Of a stretch of DNA of 10,982 bases, positions 2,951 through 10,982 are shown in pieces. The notes under the pieces were generated by a model, which saw nothing but the letters and a program-made list of their open reading frames with translations, was not told the origin of the DNA and searched no databases. The position numbers and the translations under genes are program-made. How positions within the stretch are numbered: position 1 is the first letter of the stretch; each line of letters starts with the position of its first letter. Source of the stretch: a bacterium (lineage in GTDB: Bacteria; Armatimonadota; Zipacnadia; Zipacnadales; Zipacnadaceae); NCBI GenBank assembly GCA_030603495.1, contig JAUVXR010000049.1, forward strand, positions 1 to 10,982, given 5' to 3'.

Positions 2951-2964
2951 AGGCGATTACGGCG

Positions 2965-3090
2965 GAGAACGGCATTGCGGGGGAACCCCTTTCTGAAGAA
3001 AGTGGCTTCCCCCGCACCCCCTCCCCAAAGACTTCTAGTAGCGCGCAGACCGCTGCGGTCATAAGGCCGACCACACCGGCCTGCGCTTCC
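2965..3090 (+). repeat. Composite palindromic element (hairpins A and B), copy 1
   Basis: Hairpin A pairs GCGGGGGAA (2977-2985) with TTCCCCCGC (3007-3015), with an inner CTTTC/GAAAG stem. Hairpin B (3043-3086) has 18-nt arms around an 8-nt loop with three mismatches. The same A-B order recurs at 7021-7180, where B is perfect. The element begins shortly after the RHH stop codon, so it could limit read-through, but no U-run follows it. Confidence 0.75.
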
Positions 3091-3371
3091 ACTTTAAGAG
3101 AGAAGGCAGAAGCTAACAGCTTGCGCGGGACACCCTCAGGGGACGGCAGATAACGTCAGATAGGGGCAGACAACAACAGATAAAGGCAGAAACGACTCGT
3201 TTTCGGCGGCATCGGTCTGCGCTATCACCCGTACCCTTCCCGCCTGTGCTCCACAAGTGTAGCTACGGCGGACGAGCCGGTAAGAACTTGTAATAGGACG
3301 CAGACAGTAACACCAGTTGCATTGTTGTAGCCAGATGCTGCAGCTTACTCGAAAAGGAGAGGTGATTGGTT
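3087..3371. other. Intergenic stretch before osmC with decamer array 5
   Basis: It contains five 10-bp units at 3141-3190 (GGACGGCAGA, TAACGTCAGA, TAGGGGCAGA, CAACAACAGA, TAAAGGCAGA), in the reverse orientation to arrays 1-4. I see no gene and no convincing promoter in the rest, although osmC presumably needs one here. Confidence 0.6.
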
Positions 3372-3773
3372 GTGCCAATGATTCAATGTACCACTACAAA
3401 TGTAGGGCCGACGTTGTTCTGTGCCGATGTGGAGGGATTGAAGCTGTTCGCGGATGTCCCAGGGGCCTACGGGGGGAAGGAGGCGGCAATGACTCCCCCG
3501 CAGGCACTGGTGGCAACACTGGCGAACTGCGTGGGATTGATCGTAGCGATGGCCTGCAAGAACAAGGGTATCGCCTACGAGGGCATGTCCGTGGCAGCAA
3601 CAGCGACAATGGATCCGGCGAGCCACTGCCTGGGCGACTTCAAGGTGGAGGTAAGTATGCCGGGAGAGCTCACTGACGAGGTGCGGCGGACCGTGGAAGC
3701 CGCTCAGGAGATGTGCGTCATCGGCAATACAATGTGTGCCGTTAATACCGTTGACGTCTCACTGGCAGAGTAG
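3372..3773 (+). CDS. OsmC/Ohr-family protein (thiol peroxidase-like)
   Basis: OsmC and Ohr proteins reduce organic hydroperoxides in the cytoplasm using a pair of redox cysteines. This 133-residue protein shows the family core GGKEAAMTPPQALVATLANC (34-53), with the first cysteine at Cys53 on the long central helix and a second at Cys115 (EMCVIGNT). The spacing of about 60 residues is normal for the family, as is the length. Four other cysteines (6, 17, 62, 86) and Cys122 make it cysteine-rich for its size. The start is uncertain. An AAGGAGAGGTGA stretch (3354-3365) supports GTG 3372 best, with ATG 3378 as the alternative; TTG 3366 abuts it. It is a single gene with repeat DNA on both sides. 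OsmC versus Ohr versus the less studied YhfA-like branch cannot be decided from sequence alone. Confidence 0.82.
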   Translation: MPMIQCTTTNVGPTLFCADVEGLKLFADVPGAYGGKEAAMTPPQALVATLANCVGLIVAMACKNKGIAYEGMSVAATATMDPASHCLGDFKVEVSMPGELTDEVRRTVEAAQEMCVIGNTMCAVNTVDVSLAE

Positions 3774-3782
3774 AAGAAAGAG

Positions 3783-3950
3783 GGGAGAGGGTAACGGCTT
3801 TGCGGGGGGAACCGCTTTCTGAAGAAAGTGGCTTCCCCCGCACCCCCTCCGCAAAGACTTTTAATGGGGGAGAGGCTAACGGCTTTTGCGGGGAACCCGC
3901 TTTTTGAAAAAAGCCGGTTCCCCGCACCCCTCCGGCAAAAACTTCCAAAA
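3783..3950 (+). repeat. Two tandem copies of palindromic element A
   Basis: Copy A2 pairs GCGGGGGGAA (3802-3811) with TTCCCCCGC (3833-3841). Copy A3 pairs GCGGGGAACC (3888-3897) perfectly with GGTTCCCCGC (3916-3925) and encloses a second stem, GCTTTTT with AAAAAGC. Both copies are preceded by GAGAGG and followed by a CCCCTCC(G)GCAAA segment. On the minus strand they create spurious frames rich in FAEGVRG and FAGGVRG. Confidence 0.8.
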
Positions 3951-3971
3951 GTAAAGGGAGCGAGGAGGCTG

Positions 3972-4057
3972 CCGGTAGGAGGGACATTCTTGTCCCGATG
4001 GGGTTTGGGGCCGGCCCTTCGAGAACTCCCTACGGCATGGCTCAGGGCAGGCAGGAC
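3972..4057 (+). repeat. Repeat F plus TTCGA...GGCTCAGGGCAGGC element
   Basis: Positions 3972-4009 are the exact inverted copy of 301-338 and contain the palindrome GGGACATTCTTGTCCC. Immediately after comes a CCCTTCGA...GGCTCAGGGCAGGC segment (about 4015-4052), variants of which lie at 7083-7107 and 7199-7252. No gene is present between osmC and the ATPase gene (3774-4127). Confidence 0.75.
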
Positions 4058-4070
4058 AAGGGCGGGGCGA

Positions 4071-4100
4071 TTGACAGCAACCGGCGGATGAAAGTAGACT
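4071..4100 (+). promoter_or_regulatory. Candidate promoter of the ATPase-DUF4435 operon
   Basis: TTGACA (4071-4076), an 18-bp spacer and TAGACT (4095-4100, four of six) would start transcription near 4107, about 20 nt before the ATG of the ATPase gene. The TTGACA sits in a conserved GGGGCGATTGACAGCAA block that recurs at 7485-7501, upstream of the 7570 gene, and nearly intact on the minus strand near 148-163. It may therefore be a repeat-borne promoter or only part of a repeat. Confidence 0.5.
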
Positions 4101-4127
4101 TAGGTAAAAGGTGTGAGGAGGTGGCCT

Positions 4128-5468
4128 ATGCCAGATTTCATCGTAACGGAATTGGAGATCAAGGAGCTGTGGGGACGCAAGACAGTGGGAATCAAGTTCA
4201 AGCCCGATGTCAATATCCTCGTGGGCAGGAACGGCACCGGAAAGACCACTGTGCTCAACCTGTTGAATGCGGTATTGATGTGTGACATCGCCGTGCTCGG
4301 CGAGATTGACTTTGAGGAGGTGAGGGTCCGTCTCGAGCACGGGAAACAGCGGAAAACGATAAATGTGAGAAAGGGGGCTGGCGAGGAATCTATGGAATAC
4401 AGGTTCGGGAGAGAGAAGGGGATGCCTGTGCCCCTATGGGCGGAACGGGGGCCCTATCGCACCTCACCGTATTCTACACGTTCTGCCCGGCTGAGGATGG
4501 AGAGAGCAAGTGAGGCTGTGCGTGGAAAGCTGGCGGGAATCGTGCACGTGCGCAGCATCTCGGTTCACCGTACCCCCGAGCGGGAGAGGGAAAGGGAAGA
4601 GCAGTCGTTTAAATATGACAAAGAGCGGATGCCAGCAGTGGATGCTAGGCTCGATGATTTGCTGGGGGAGTTTATCGAGTATCAGGCGCTGTTGGGGACG
4701 CAGCTCGATAAAGTGTCCCAGAAATTCCAGGAGGACGTAAGCCTATCGATGCTTTACGACCCCGGTTTGGACACCTTCAGCGCCGAAGCACTCCAGTTGG
4801 ACCTGAAGTCTGAGGAGAAAAGACTGCATAACGCGTTTACGGAATTGGACATAGATCCATCGACATTCACAAAGCGGCTGCATACTCACATCAGGCGACT
4901 GTCCGGGTCCGTGGAAGCATTGAGAGATTTCGCTAACAAAGAACCCAAAGGCCGGGTCAATGTGGACGACCTATTCGTCTGGGGGCTGATAAAGCGGACC
5001 GAGCATATCATCAACCTTGCGGACAATGCACGACACGAGAAACTGACGATCACGGGCCAGCGCGACAAGTTCGTAGAGCTGTGCAACGACTTTTTCGAAG
5101 ACAAATCGGTGGGTCTGGACTCTGATGGAAAACTGTTCTGTAGCCTCCATGATCACAATGAAGCGGGCGAAGACAACACGCGCTTGGTGCCAATGGTGGA
5201 GAAGCTCTCATCGGGTGAGAAGCAACTGTTGATAATGCTGATAGAGACGTTGGTTCAGCGTAACGAGCCATGCGTGTTTATGACGGACGAGCCAGAAATC
5301 TCTCTGCACGTAGCTTGGCAAGAAAAAGTGCTCTCGTCGATCCGCCTGCTGAACCCGAATTCCCAGCTGATCGTTGCAACTCACTCGCCGGACATCATTT
5401 CGGAGTTTGGAGAGCATACGATCGGCATGCAAGGCGTGATGGAGGCTTCAGACAATGCCAATGCCTAG
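4128..5468 (+). CDS. ariA: PARIS-like AriA: AAA/ABC-type ATPase of an anti-phage pair
   Basis: This 446-residue ABC-class ATPase has Walker A GRNGTGKT (33-40, Lys39), the signature LSSGEKQ (360-366), Walker B VFMTDEPE (383-390, Asp387 and Glu388) and the switch histidine in ATHSPDII (His419). The middle (about 150-340) is charged and helical, the usual insertion of SMC/RecF/OLD-like ATPases. In PARIS defence AriA assembles into an ATP-dependent sensor complex that holds AriB and releases it when a phage anti-restriction protein is detected. A DUF4435/TOPRIM gene overlapping the 3' end by 14 nt, together with the size, matches that architecture. The start is ATG 4128, with AGGAGG at 4116-4121; an upstream in-frame GTG at 4113 overlaps this RBS and is rejected. 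All ATPase residues are intact, so the gene looks functional. The alternative is another OLD-like or AAA-DUF4435 pair with a different trigger. Confidence 0.75.
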   Translation: MPDFIVTELEIKELWGRKTVGIKFKPDVNILVGRNGTGKTTVLNLLNAVLMCDIAVLGEIDFEEVRVRLEHGKQRKTINVRKGAGEESMEYRFGREKGMPVPLWAERGPYRTSPYSTRSARLRMERASEAVRGKLAGIVHVRSISVHRTPEREREREEQSFKYDKERMPAVDARLDDLLGEFIEYQALLGTQLDKVSQKFQEDVSLSMLYDPGLDTFSAEALQLDLKSEEKRLHNAFTELDIDPSTFTKRLHTHIRRLSGSVEALRDFANKEPKGRVNVDDLFVWGLIKRTEHIINLADNARHEKLTITGQRDKFVELCNDFFEDKSVGLDSDGKLFCSLHDHNEAGEDNTRLVPMVEKLSSGEKQLLIMLIETLVQRNEPCVFMTDEPEISLHVAWQEKVLSSIRLLNPNSQLIVATHSPDIISEFGEHTIGMQGVMEASDNANA

Positions 5469-6303
5469 CCGGACTCCTCAGGGCATCAATAACTACCCGC
5501 ACTTGTTCAAGGGGAAGATACTCGTATGGATAGAGGGGCCGCAGGATGAACCGTTCTGGGGTATGATCTTTCCGGGCGAATGGTATGGCAAAGACGTTAG
5601 GTTCAAACGCGCCTACGGTCGTGACGAAATAGACAAGATTATCAAGTGGGTGATGGAGGGCGAGACCGATGCACTGGCAACGCGGGACAGCGAATATGAT
5701 GATATCTTCCCGCCGGAGGAGGAAAGGCACCCACGGGTGGTAACCACGGGTCGTCACAGCATCGAGAACTACTTCTTCGTACCCGAGGTAATTGACGACA
5801 TCGCGGCCACGCTAAGCAATTTAGCGCCGAACGCGATCCAAGTTGGGAAAGTATGGGAGGACGAGATTACCGAGAGATTCCAGGAACTCCTATACCTCGA
5901 TTGCACCGCGGTACGCCTTGGCACAGGGGATAAAGTGATGGGTGACAAGTGTGCGAGGTTCCTTAAGAATCGAAGTTGGCGCCCGTGCGCGCAGAAGATC
6001 TCGAAGTGTATCGGGAAGCTCGACCTTCCGGAAGATGACGTGGTAGAGACCCGAGAAGCATTTCAGGGGAGGCGTCTGTTGTTCTACATGAGGGGGCATT
6101 TCTTGGCCCTGTCGGTGTTGCACCTGGTGAAGAACGAGGTCAGGAATCAAAAGGGCTCCAGTCCGTCGCTAAGTCACGATGCGCTCACCGGAATGTGCCT
6201 GACGGCTTGTAGGACACGGCTTGCCAGTGACCCGGACTTGCTGATGCTTCAGAGCGCTGCGGAGGATGCCCTGTCTCACCTTGTCGGCCCCGCGGGCTCG
6301 TAG
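5455..6303 (+). CDS. ariB: PARIS-like AriB: DUF4435/TOPRIM nuclease effector
   Basis: This 282-residue protein has the TOPRIM first-strand motif KILVWIEGPQDEPFW (21-35, Glu27-Gly28 and Asp31), a second acidic cluster ATRDSEYDD (75-83) and the DUF4435 hallmark RHSIENYFF (100-108). A C-terminal helix contains RGHFLALSVL (213-222). In characterised PARIS systems AriB is a toxic TOPRIM nuclease that cuts tRNA after release from AriA, stopping the infected cell. Here the expected DxD of a TOPRIM site reads D78-S-E80, a conservative change. The start is ATG 5455, with GGAGG at 5441-5445, and lies inside ariA, so translation is probably coupled; ATG 5461 is a less favoured alternative. Directly after the stop the DNA becomes repeat mosaic. 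The DUF4435 identity is fairly sure. The defence role and tRNA target are inferred from the family and gene order. Confidence 0.75.
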   Translation: MPMPSRTPQGINNYPHLFKGKILVWIEGPQDEPFWGMIFPGEWYGKDVRFKRAYGRDEIDKIIKWVMEGETDALATRDSEYDDIFPPEEERHPRVVTTGRHSIENYFFVPEVIDDIAATLSNLAPNAIQVGKVWEDEITERFQELLYLDCTAVRLGTGDKVMGDKCARFLKNRSWRPCAQKISKCIGKLDLPEDDVVETREAFQGRRLLFYMRGHFLALSVLHLVKNEVRNQKGSSPSLSHDALTGMCLTACRTRLASDPDLLMLQSAAEDALSHLVGPAGS

Positions 6304-6600
6304 CGCCCCTACGGTTGACGACAGATGGAGGCAGATAAGAACAGACAGGAGCAGACAACGGCATCCGCCTTCGCCAAGGCTACGGCGGACAGGGAGCAGC
6401 GCCCCTACGGTTGACGACGGATAGAGGCAGACAAAGGCAGGGTCGGGGCAAGGGTGCCCCTCCCACAGAGGAGGACAAATAGGGAAGACAGGCGAGACGC
6501 CTGTCCTACCATAAGGCCGAGGATCCGCCGTCGCCGCACCTGCGCGGCTATGGCGGACAAGGAGCAGCGGCCCTACGAGTGAGGCAGATGAACGCAATGC
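6304..6600. repeat. Repeat mosaic downstream of ariB
   Basis: It contains two decamer arrays on the minus strand (6317-6356 and 6413-6440), each preceded by GCGCCCCTACGGTTGACGAC. Two GCC..CGGCGGACA elements lie near 6366-6391 and 6527-6553. A GGGGCAAGGGTGCCCC repeat is at 6441-6474, and a perfect hairpin GACAGGCGAGACGCCTGTC at 6487-6505. I see no gene here. Confidence 0.75.
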
Positions 6601-6970: not shown

Positions 6971-7180
6971 AAAGTAGCGCGCCTGCAATTATAGGGGGAT
7001 TTAGTGGCAACCACGGAGATAATGGGGGAGAGGCTAACACCTTCTGCGGGGGAACCCCTTTCTGGAGAAAGTGGCTTCCCCCGTTCGACCAGGCTCACGA
7101 CAGGCCACACCCCCTCCCCAAAGACTCTTATTAGCGCGCAGACTGGTGCGGTCATAGGGACGACCGCACCAGTCTGCGCT
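6971..7180. repeat. Hairpin-repeat copy plus composite A-B element, copy 2
   Basis: Positions 6971-7018 are the inverted third copy of the GTGGTTGCCACTAA repeat seen at 8 and 432. Next comes hairpin A (about 7046-7084), interrupted after CCCCCG by about 24 bp resembling the TTCGA..GGCTCA..ACAGGC element. Hairpin B follows (7136-7179): arms GCGCAGACTGGTGCGGTC and its exact complement around an 8-nt loop. The A-B order is as at 2965-3090. Confidence 0.8.
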
Positions 7181-7569
7181 TGAATGTAGGGGGAGAGGGC
7201 CCTTCGACCATTCGGCCCTATACGGCGGGCTCAGGACCTGCGGCAGGCTTACTTCAACAGCGTCGGGGCAAGGGTGCCCCTCCCACAACTTTGGGCGAAT
7301 CAGATTCTTGTTCCGTAGGGGGGCCTTGGTGAATCAGGCCCCTCCCACAACATTTGGGCGAATCAGATTATTGTTCTGTAGGGGGGCCTTGGTGAGTCAG
7401 GCCATTCCTCCGTGGGAGGGGCACCCTTGCCCCGACCAGCACCCGGCTCAGCAAGTCAATGATAAGGGGGCGGTCGCGGGGTGCGGGGCGATTGACAGCA
7501 AACGACGGACAGGCGCAGACTGGGGGCGAAAAATGTTGGTGAAGTGGCATAGGCAAAGGAGGCAATAAG
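7181..7569. repeat. Repeat cluster with 63-bp tandem duplication
   Basis: A TTCGA...GGCTCAGGAC element lies at about 7199-7252. A GTCGGGGCAAGGGTGCCCC repeat is at 7261-7287, with its inverted copy at 7412-7437. Between them lies a tandem duplication: TTGGGCGAATCAGATT starts at 7291 and again at 7354, each followed by GTAGGGGGGCCTTGGTGA. The two inverted repeats flank the duplication like ends of a small element. No gene is visible before 7570. Confidence 0.75.
7485..7521 (+). promoter_or_regulatory. TTGACA-containing block shared with the ariA upstream region
   Basis: GGGGCGATTGACAGCAA, followed by degenerate decamer-like sequence, is shared with 4064-4100. TTGACA (7492-7497) is a perfect -35, but the matching -10 candidate here (CAGACT, 18-bp spacer) is poor. 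It is a weak promoter candidate for the gene at 7570. Confidence 0.3.
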
Positions 7570-7869: not shown

Positions 7870-8131
7870 GGCTAATCTTCGTGACAGGCGAGACGCCTGT
7901 CGTACCGTACGGTCGGGGCAAGGGTGCCCCTCCCACAGAGGAGGGTAACTAACAGCGACAGACGGGAGCGGGAAGCGGCGGCCGGAGGGTCGGCGTTTTT
8001 TGGTGTCTGCGCGTAAAGCGCCAAAATAGGCGCCAGGCGCGGAGGTCGGGATGTAGGCGAACAATAAGCGCAGCGCAGGTGTCTAAGATGATGAGGCCGC
8101 GTAGCTAACTAAGAAAAGCGAGGTGAGTCAA
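7870..8131. repeat. Intergenic repeats after the LamG-like gene
   Basis: It contains the perfect 8-bp-stem hairpin GACAGGCGAGACGCCTGTC (7883-7901), already seen at 6487, and the GGTCGGGGCAAGGGTGCCCC repeat (7911-7945), identical in its first 34 bp to 6441-6474. The two families occur in opposite order at the two sites. Confidence 0.75.
7981..8001 (+). terminator. Weak intrinsic terminator candidate
   Basis: A short GC stem (GCCG paired with CGGC around GAGGGT) is directly followed by six T residues. It lies about 110 nt after the stop of the LamG-like gene. The stem is only 4 bp, so the call is tentative. Confidence 0.35.
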
Positions 8132-8641
8132 ATGTCAGGTACCGTCGGATTCAGAAGTGTAGGACTTATCATAGCCGTTGCGCTGGCCGGTATGGTCTAT
8201 ACCGCCCGGCCAGCCTACGCCGGAGGGGACCTGGGCAAGGTTCTCGCCGGCGCAGCAGTAGGCTACCTGGTCTACAAAGCCCTGGATCATGACGAGGGCC
8301 CAGGCCACCGGCACCACCAACGGTGCTACAAACCCCCGCCGCCGCGCCATCACCACGGGCGAGTCGGCTACGGATGGGGCCAGTACAGGTGGGATAGGAA
8401 GTGTGACCACCGGGGCTGCGAGCGCGACCGATACCGGGATCGCGACCGGGGCCGGGACCGTGGGCGCGGCTGGGGCAATGGGCACGAGCAGGGCCGGGAC
8501 CGGGACCATAGAGGCGGCTGGGATAGAGGGCACGACCGGGACCAGGACCGGGATCAAAGGGGCGACAGGGATAGAGAGCACGAGCAGAGCGGAGACCGGG
8601 ACCATAGGGGCGGCGGGCGTGGAGGTGGTGGCCGTCACTGA
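8132..8641 (+). CDS. Exported Arg/Asp/His/Gly-rich repeat protein
   Basis: This 169-residue protein starts with a typical signal peptide (hydrophobic about 10-23, likely cut after ARPAYA at residue 30). A short glycine-zipper-like hydrophobic segment follows (GKVLAGAAVGYLVYKA, 35-50). Then comes a His/Pro-rich stretch (HRHHQRC, PPPPRHHH; 58-75) with two further cysteines (91, 96), and a tail made of three 16-residue repeats (117-132, 133-148, 149-164) of the pattern (G/E)H-(E/D)-(Q/R)-(x)n-DRD-(x)n-RG. The tail alternates Arg and Asp almost perfectly. I recognise no family. Similar low-complexity exported proteins are often annotated as hypothetical; metal binding by the histidines and cysteines, or a polyampholyte envelope role, are possibilities. 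The start is ATG 8132, with GAGGTGA (8120-8126) as RBS; an upstream GTG lies inside that RBS. It converges on repA with only 23 bp between. Confidence 0.7.
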   Translation: MSGTVGFRSVGLIIAVALAGMVYTARPAYAGGDLGKVLAGAAVGYLVYKALDHDEGPGHRHHQRCYKPPPPRHHHGRVGYGWGQYRWDRKCDHRGCERDRYRDRDRGRDRGRGWGNGHEQGRDRDHRGGWDRGHDRDQDRDQRGDRDREHEQSGDRDHRGGGRGGGGRH

Positions 8642-8664: not shown

Positions 8665-10065
8665 TTAGTCGAGAAGAGTAGCAATGTAATCGAGCAGGAC
8701 AACTCCGTAAGCGGCGCTGTCGGGATGAGCAGCCAATGCGGGGTTGTCCTGCTCGAGTTGGCGCCGGGCAGTAGACTCAATCTGCGCGCGCTCGGTAGGG
8801 GAGAGGCGGGCAAGGACTTCCCGAGAGGCCTGGGCCGCCACCTGCCGCTCCTGGGCCTCGCGCTGGCGCTGCTCGTGGCGCTCAAGCTCAGCCTCGGCCT
8901 CGCGCTGAGCCTGGCCCTGCTCGGCCTGAGCCTTCAAATGGCTGGCCGGAGCAGCCCACTGTCCGCGAATAGCCTCGACAAGCATCGCCGGTGGGTCGTT
9001 GGGGCTGCGGTAAGGTAGATAATCAAGCTGGCGGGCAACCTCGTCACCGTAGCGAGTAACAAGCTGGCGGGCTACGGCATTAGTAACACCAATCGCAGCA
9101 AGCCGGTCGAGAAGATCAGTGTGCTGCTGAGTCACCACCGACTGAGGCGGGGCGCTGTCAGTAAACCAGTAGATGACCTGCTCGTCAGCGTTGCGGGCAG
9201 GGCGATGGTACCTGAACCCGCCCAGAAAACCGTTGGCACGAAGCTCGACGTGGGCGCGCTCAAGCTCCTGCTTGATGTGGCTGGGATAATAGTTGCGGCT
9301 CATGCCGAGCTTCTCAAAACCAAGCTTGCGGAGGCCAATGCGAAAAGCAGACTTGCCATCGAGGCGCTTCTTGTCGAGATAGCGGAAAAGCCGGCGCGAT
9401 ACGGCGCTGCGCAAAGCGAAGTAGAAGGCGGTGTCGAGCTGCTTGATGTTGCCAGCCTCGAAAGATTTGAAGATAATCTCGTTCCAGGCGACGTAGCTCA
9501 AAGGCAAAGGACGCTGGGGCCCAGCAGGCTTGCGGCCGCGAGGCTCGCTGTAAAGAGCATAGTCGTCAATGATGTGAAAGCCGACGTCTACGTAGGACTG
9601 CTGAGCCTTGTCCCAGAAGGCGCGCTTGGTGGTGATGGTCACCCCTAAGAGACGATCGAGCGCGCCCTTGAGGCGCTTGTAGCTGCCGCCCTTGTCGGGC
9701 CAGCCAAGGCGTTTTATTAGATCGTAACGGGTTAGATGGACGACGCGGGAGGAGTAGCCCTGTTCGCGGGTCACTTCCATGAGCGCGACGTAGACCTGCT
9801 CGTCACTGGCAACGGGGAGGCCGAACTCCTCACTGGCAGTGACGATCCAGGTGCGCTCGACCTGGCCACCACCCTTGCCGCGGATGACGTCGGAGAACTC
9901 GATGGTATCAAGGCCGGGGAGCTGACGATCAGATAACAAGGCAAACGGGAACTCAGCGAGGTTCATCTCGTCGCCGCCCACACGTGGGGGCTGCAAGATG
10001 ACCTGCTCCGAGATTTGGTCAAGCGAGAGCGACGCGAAGATGTCACTGTCTTCGGGCACAAGCAT
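8665..10065 (-). CDS. repA: Plasmid replication initiator RepA (RPA family)
   Basis: This 466-residue initiator should bind the plasmid origin and start replication. Residues 33-60 (DEMNLAEFPFALLSDRQLPG...) match the opening of the plasmid replication initiator protein A family. Two winged-helix-like segments follow, around 111-143 (LTRYDLIKRLGW...) and 213-281 (AFYFALRSAVSRRLFRYLDKK...). A further motif at about 336-382 (AIGVTNAVARQLVTRYGDEV, then a YLPYRS..NDPPAMLVEAIRG segment) is shared by many plasmid Rep proteins. It ends in a Gln/Glu/Arg-rich coiled coil (388-430) and a short globular tail. Length and order are complete, with no frame break. Start ATG 10065 is the best in-frame choice, although its RBS (GAGGGG, 12 nt upstream) is weak; Met34 is an alternative that would clip the N-terminal arm. 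It lies opposite to the par operon. A palindrome at 10132-10157 may be its operator or part of the origin. Confidence 0.85.
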   Translation of the reverse strand: MLVPEDSDIFASLSLDQISEQVILQPPRVGGDEMNLAEFPFALLSDRQLPGLDTIEFSDVIRGKGGGQVERTWIVTASEEFGLPVASDEQVYVALMEVTREQGYSSRVVHLTRYDLIKRLGWPDKGGSYKRLKGALDRLLGVTITTKRAFWDKAQQSYVDVGFHIIDDYALYSEPRGRKPAGPQRPLPLSYVAWNEIIFKSFEAGNIKQLDTAFYFALRSAVSRRLFRYLDKKRLDGKSAFRIGLRKLGFEKLGMSRNYYPSHIKQELERAHVELRANGFLGGFRYHRPARNADEQVIYWFTDSAPPQSVVTQQHTDLLDRLAAIGVTNAVARQLVTRYGDEVARQLDYLPYRSPNDPPAMLVEAIRGQWAAPASHLKAQAEQGQAQREAEAELERHEQRQREAQERQVAAQASREVLARLSPTERAQIESTARRQLEQDNPALAAHPDSAAYGVVLLDYIATLLD

Positions 10066-10650: not shown

Positions 10651-10982
10651 ATGACCAAGTATATCGTAGTTCTGTGTCTAGTCGTAGCCCTGGCGGTTCC
10701 GGCTAGCGCACAGATCAACCCCGCGCAGACCGTTCCCTTCGACCACTGGGCCTATGATGCCGTCCAGCAGCTAGTGGACATGGGGATACTCATTGGGTAT
10801 CCCGATGGCACGATCCGCGGCAACCGCGCCATGACTCGCTACGAGTTCGCTATGGCGCTGAGCCGGATGCTGGATGCCATCGAGCAGACGCCGGGCCTGG
10901 CTGGTCCCAAGGGGGCCACGGGAGCTAGGGGCGCTGCAGGCCCCCAGGGAGCCAAGGGCGCTACCGGTGCAGTTGGGCCGGC
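10651..10982 (+). CDS. Exported SLH-domain protein with collagen-like triplets (runs off the window)
   Basis: 110 codons are visible. A signal peptide (1-20, likely cut after VPASA) precedes one SLH domain at about 26-74, with the diagnostic pieces PFDHWAYDAVQQLVDMGIL, GYPDGTIRGN and MTRYEFAMALSRML. SLH domains anchor proteins to cell-wall polymers. From residue 82 the chain becomes Gly-X-Y repeats (GLA GPK GAT GAR GAA GPQ and so on), which continue to the window edge. In diderms, one N-terminal SLH domain after a signal peptide is typical of outer-membrane OmpM-like or porin-like proteins tethered to peptidoglycan. A collagen-like spacer right after it suggests a rigid stalk. The ATG follows a GAGGAT element (10638-10643), 7 nt upstream. 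The C-terminal part, which would show a barrel or other domain, is outside the window. Confidence 0.88.
   Translation, partial: MTKYIVVLCLVVALAVPASAQINPAQTVPFDHWAYDAVQQLVDMGILIGYPDGTIRGNRAMTRYEFAMALSRMLDAIEQTPGLAGPKGATGARGAAGPQGAKGATGAVGP

Follow-up and report, generated by a model that had tools for sequence, protein, structure and literature searches.

PARIS of Escherichia coli B185 (PDB codes 8ux9 and 8v45–8v49) is a two-gene operon encoding an ABC ATPase, AriA, and a DUF4435 TOPRIM nuclease, AriB. In PARIS, a hexamer of AriA keeps AriB sequestered until a phage protein, Ocr, Arn or Ptr, binds; AriB then acts as a dimer that cuts tRNA and arrests growth. Work on the B185 system is the source for oligomer formation, sequestration and release of AriB, and tRNA cleavage (PMC9122126, PMC12409363, PMC11455837). 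In B185 AriB, mutation of K60 and K64 abolishes defense against T7; both residues were modelled as holding the tRNA anticodon loop, and R236 was modelled in contact with the tRNA D-loop (PMC12409363). PARIS is also carried by the P2-like phage vB_EcoM-813R9 and by the Nostoc plasmid pNsp_b. The ATPases of Septu and retron PtuA systems share the ABC ATPase core and form multi-subunit assemblies, whereas their partner is an HNH nuclease. OLD nucleases and Gabija GajA join an ABC ATPase and a TOPRIM nuclease in one fused chain.

The locus described here lies on a contig of 10,982 bp, the whole of which we refer to as the window. It shares with B185 PARIS the gene order, the two-gene operon, the pairing of an ABC ATPase with a DUF4435 TOPRIM protein, and the catalytic residues and folds of both subunits. 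In contrast, identity to the B185 proteins is 16–19% in structural alignments, AriA belongs to another clade, and AriB is shorter (282 amino acids compared with about 310). The locus is closer to PARIS of vB_EcoM-813R9 and pNsp_b, with which it shares the AriA clade as well as AriB length, motifs and gene overlap, but identity is only 33–37% for AriA and 25–27% for AriB, and the locus is chromosomal rather than phage- or plasmid-borne. The best full-length identity of about 35–37% agrees with the distant sequence that had been predicted. We read the locus, with a probability of about 0.9, as a chromosomal two-gene PARIS abortive-infection system whose mechanism is most likely that of B185, probably apart from the grip on the anticodon; it adds a new, divergent representative to a known system, within a known clade.

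The ariA–ariB gene pair

The ariA gene (positions 4128–5468, + strand; ATG 4128 to TAG 5468) encodes an ABC/SMC-type ATPase of 446 amino acids that corresponds to the PARIS sensor-scaffold. As predicted for an ABC-class ATPase with all motifs intact, the frame is open throughout and contains a Walker A motif (GRNGTGKTT), a signature motif (LSSGEKQ), a Walker B motif (VFMTDEPE) and an H-loop (THSP), all four invariant or near-invariant in an alignment with 22 relatives. The catalytic glutamate of the DEPE motif, E388, aligns with E393 of B185.

The gene is preceded by a Shine-Dalgarno sequence (AGGAGG, 4116–4121, + strand) placed 6 nt ahead of the start codon. The original prediction had delimited the region as 4071–6303; the gene pair is found within it, but position 4071 marks a promoter-like TTGACA and not the start of a gene. 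The element TTGACA-18-TAGACT (4071–4100, + strand) is a candidate ariAB promoter by consensus match, with 10 of 12 consensus positions, and 3 such sites occur in the region compared with 1.4 expected by chance.

The ariB gene (5455–6303, + strand) encodes the putative DUF4435/TOPRIM nuclease effector of 282 amino acids, including the expected EG and IENYF motifs. It overlaps ariA by exactly 14 nt (5455–5468, + strand), just as anticipated, an arrangement that suggests translational coupling. An in-frame ATG at 5461 would shorten the overlap to 8 nt, ATGCCTAG. Because the same 8-nt overlap is found in Nostoc, in the E. coli phage 813R9 and in several relatives from viral contigs, AriB may in fact begin at this ATG; overlaps of 8 or 14 nt recur among the relatives. 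A motif scan found an ATPase gene adjacent to a gene with the (H/Y)S-x-EN motif at 66 of 169 loci, indicating that the pairing is not due to chance, and the adjacency of ariA and ariB is conserved in relatives across several phyla.

Profiles and folds of both proteins identify the pair as PARIS, in line with the original prediction. The top PADLOC model is AriA for the ATPase (4.7e-40; next family PtuA, 2.4e-24) and AriB for its partner (3.4e-10). The closest PDB sequence to AriA is PARIS AriA 8ux9 (7.8e-19). A search of the PDB with the single AriB sequence gave no significant match; the profile of its clade matched PARIS AriB only (6.8e-6). Against the Pfam DUF4435 model, which 20 of 22 clade members match at an E-value of 0.001 or better, AriB scores 21.9 bits. 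The original PARIS detection rule applies a cut-off of 27 bits (PMC9122126) and would therefore have missed this locus.

AlphaFold models were obtained from the clade alignments for AriA (pLDDT 81.2) and AriB (pLDDT 89.6), and the structural comparison, carried out on single chains, placed PARIS chains first for both proteins. The first Foldseek match of the AriA model is the PARIS complex (2.0e-17), and its alignment with 8ux9_B covers 359 residues at a Z-score of 26.0, ahead of 18.3 for the next fold family. The AriB model matches PARIS AriB (5.8e-5), with no other entries below 0.001, and aligns with 8v46_D at a Z-score of 14.2 over 234 residues. The TOPRIM domain of OLD follows at 7.0.

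The TOPRIM residues of B185 AriB are present at the corresponding positions. E26 of the B185 EG motif aligns with E27-G, D88-x-E90 with D78-x-E80, HSLENY (S120, E122 and N123) with HSIENY (S102, E104 and N105), and R236-G-H with R213-G-H. What is observed at the locus itself comprises the gene pair, its overlap, the intact ATPase and TOPRIM residues, the predicted folds, the phylogenetic placement and the chromosomal context; the steps of the mechanism are transferred from the B185 work. By this analogy, AriA with ATP most likely assembles into a ring-like scaffold that keeps AriB inactive. Binding of a phage protein to AriA would set AriB free, and the freed AriB would dimerize and cleave RNA, most likely tRNA, through a two-metal TOPRIM site formed by E27 and D78/E80. 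Cleavage would then halt translation and phage growth.

Phylogeny and the missing AriB segment

The tree built for AriA (43 sequences) places the pair in a clade of PARIS sequences apart from B185. This clade (26 rows, 100/100 support) includes Nostoc, Deinococcus, an Opitutales genome and alphaproteobacteria, and takes in many PARIS sequences from viral contigs, among them the E. coli P2-like 813R9; the 43-sequence tree resolves no exact sister of the locus AriA within it. A second clade with 100/100 support contains B185, Pseudoalteromonas, Planktothrix and Crocosphaera. Assignment to the B185-type subgroup is ruled out by this separation and by the missing K60/K64 segment described below.

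Searches of viral and genome contigs with the single AriA and AriB sequences yielded no close relatives, and an alignment was needed; the alignment-based search recovered many AriA relatives in both genomes and viral contigs. Members of the locus AriA clade occur in E. coli genomes, with 18 copies at ≥99% and 12 more distant ones; E. coli O42 (PARIS-1) is not among these 30 matched genomes. Two plasmids carry irregular copies of the genes. On a Pantoea plasmid, AriA (L006, 2998–4301) is annotated as two genes and apparently broken, beside a shortened AriB, and a Pseudanabaena plasmid carries an orphan AriB-like DUF4435 gene (L007, 3992–4816), with no AriA annotated alongside.

AriB was not found in 60 other genomes, ranging from genus to phylum level, and among 291 genomes from the phylum only 4, the own genome counted, have AriA at 1e-20. 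This scarcity fits horizontal acquisition, and the PARIS genes look acquired. At least one of the other AriA carriers in the phylum (L011) falls into another AriA clade.

The most conspicuous difference to B185 lies in AriB. In B185, K60 and K64 belong to a segment located after the second TOPRIM strand and before the following helix. In the alignment, this segment is missing from the locus AriB and from the whole P2/Nostoc clade. The spacing between the catalytic glutamate (E) and aspartate (D) is 47–51 residues in clade members without other inserts, compared with 62 in B185, and in the AriB model the strand formed by residues 48–52 runs directly into the helix formed by residues 56–67. The absence of the segment suggests an altered grip on the anticodon, so that anticodon recognition by AriB, and perhaps its target, may differ from B185.

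The strongest alternative to a mechanism fully like that of B185 builds on this observation: AriA would act as the PARIS scaffold, and AriB would recognize RNA differently and cut another set of tRNAs or another RNA. Both the shortened spacing across the clade and the direct passage from strand to helix in the model speak for it. However, the RGH motif with the equivalent of B185 R236 and all catalytic residues are retained, and other lysines of the locus AriB (K61 and K64) are located on the following helix. We consider this alternative a serious one, at somewhat below even odds. The original prediction had proposed a distant sequence and perhaps a different trigger; the sequence comparison points at least as much to a different RNA recognition by AriB.

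The other explanations fare far worse. A decayed, non-functional remnant might be suspected in flanks that are rich in lineage repeats and include a truncated lpxB copy, but both frames are full length, with all catalytic residues intact, a strong Shine-Dalgarno sequence and coupling, which makes decay very improbable. A different ATPase–nuclease system, of the Septu/retron PtuA or OLD/Gabija type, is least probable of all: the ATPase has further matches among PtuA, mad3 and SMC/Rad50 profiles and folds, and OLD TOPRIM domains are the second-best fold for AriB, but PARIS models and chains score above these for both proteins, an HNH partner is lacking, and the TOPRIM domain resides on a protein of its own, unlike in OLD.

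Chromosomal setting of the operon

The PARIS reading includes a chromosomal location, whereas the pair had originally been assigned to a plasmid backbone or mobile-element DNA. The replication and partition genes behind that assignment are real, but they are conserved in the lineage and chromosomal, and it is the PARIS genes themselves that look acquired. Upstream of the operon, a ParA-family ATPase gene (1681–2475, + strand) belongs to a conserved chromosomal block and shows 55–75% identity to its counterparts in sister genomes. It is followed by a small gene (2462–2950, + strand) that is ParB-like by position only, with no family match above the cut-off, and by a gene for an OsmC-like protein (3366–3773, + strand), a neighbor that is also found near parA in two sister genomes. 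Downstream of the operon are orf8123 (8123–8641, + strand), encoding a small secreted-type protein and conserved beside repA in sister genomes, and a gene for a RepA-like (PF10134 RPA) replication-initiator homologue (8665–10065, – strand). The RepA-like gene is conserved in genomes of the same genus and family with identities of up to 78%; in these relatives it usually lies near parA and the following small gene, and often near orf8123.

At its end, the window carries the start of a long protein with SLH and collagen-like regions (10651–10982, + strand) that runs on into another contig of the genome, the 29.9-kb C46. Over its final 141 bases, the window matches the reversed end of C46 exactly, and the reading frame stays open across the join. 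An overlap of 141 bp is a length typical of the largest k-mer of one assembler. Beyond the join, C46 continues with lipoproteins, DegT, Gfo/Idh and a sugar transferase in the order of the sister genomes. Two of these (G006 and G003) share one gene order beside the block, with genes for two lipoproteins, threonine aldolase, DegT aminotransferase and a sigma-54 activator, followed by rpoN. The DegT orthologue of the own genome is found on C46 (81%). The identity with C46, the frame through the join and the gene order of the sister genomes establish that the PARIS operon is chromosomal. A plasmid-borne element is ruled out by the C46 join, the gene order in sister genomes and the lineage-conserved parA and repA, and a circular contig by the lack of a terminal overlap in the window, which spans the entire contig.

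Several traces of rearrangement surround these genes. A complete lpxB is present on C46, and positions 602–1018 of the window hold a C-terminal fragment with 78% identity to it, a diverged, truncated duplicate. Short dispersed repeats, both direct and inverted, occupy 2960–4090, 6300–6540, 7020–7440 and 7900–7945, and parts of them match contigs throughout the genome. Remnants of the repA C terminus adjoin orf8123 in three sister genomes (L190, 14553–14681; L191, 973–1101; L201, 8418–8516), two of which possess a full repA beside the remnant, as traces of past duplication or replacement.

Defense genes at the parA–repA block

Restriction genes are located within about 8 kb of the parA–repA block in four genomes. 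In G006, a gene for a GmrSD-type enzyme separates the parA operon from orf8123; G013 has a restriction-modification pair of type IIG/ISP in the interval from the parA operon to repA. In G003 a type ISP gene adjoins the parA operon, and in G009 a type IIG/ISP gene lies about 10 bp from repA. No defense gene was recognized at the block in G008, G011 or the second locus of G013. G004 retains a repA remnant only, with an XRE-IrrE gene nearby. This peptidase gene (L201, 5696–7296) has RmrA/CapP-like PADLOC scores and is followed by a small gene of no known family.

From the restriction genes in G003, G006, G009 and G013, it appears possible that the parA–repA block, perhaps a domesticated plasmid, is a chromosomal defense hotspot that holds different defense genes in each species. 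Across the 15 family genomes, 5 of 15 loci of three defense families lie within about 8 kb of a repA locus compared with 0.07 expected, a post hoc statistic since the three families were partly picked because they had been seen near repA; the portion not seen beforehand is 1 of 11 (G009; p = 0.05), which is weak. We advance tentatively, and with slightly more doubt than confidence, the combined proposal that AriB of this clade cuts another set of RNAs than B185 AriB and that the block, possibly a domesticated plasmid, is a hotspot that swaps PARIS, GmrSD and type IIG/ISP systems. Elsewhere, the own genome carries one gene of type ISP and another of the GmrSD type, so that a first-line restriction system exists for PARIS to back up.

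The locus extends PARIS to a lineage in which it is rare, and it shows that the original Pfam detection rule misses PARIS members of this kind. Its AriB belongs to a subgroup that lacks the residues essential for defense in B185 and is also found in P2-like prophages of E. coli, where it can be tested, raising the testable question of whether the set of tRNAs that is cut is common to all PARIS effectors. The setting of the operon suggests that a chromosomal replication and partition block may serve as a hotspot for defense genes.
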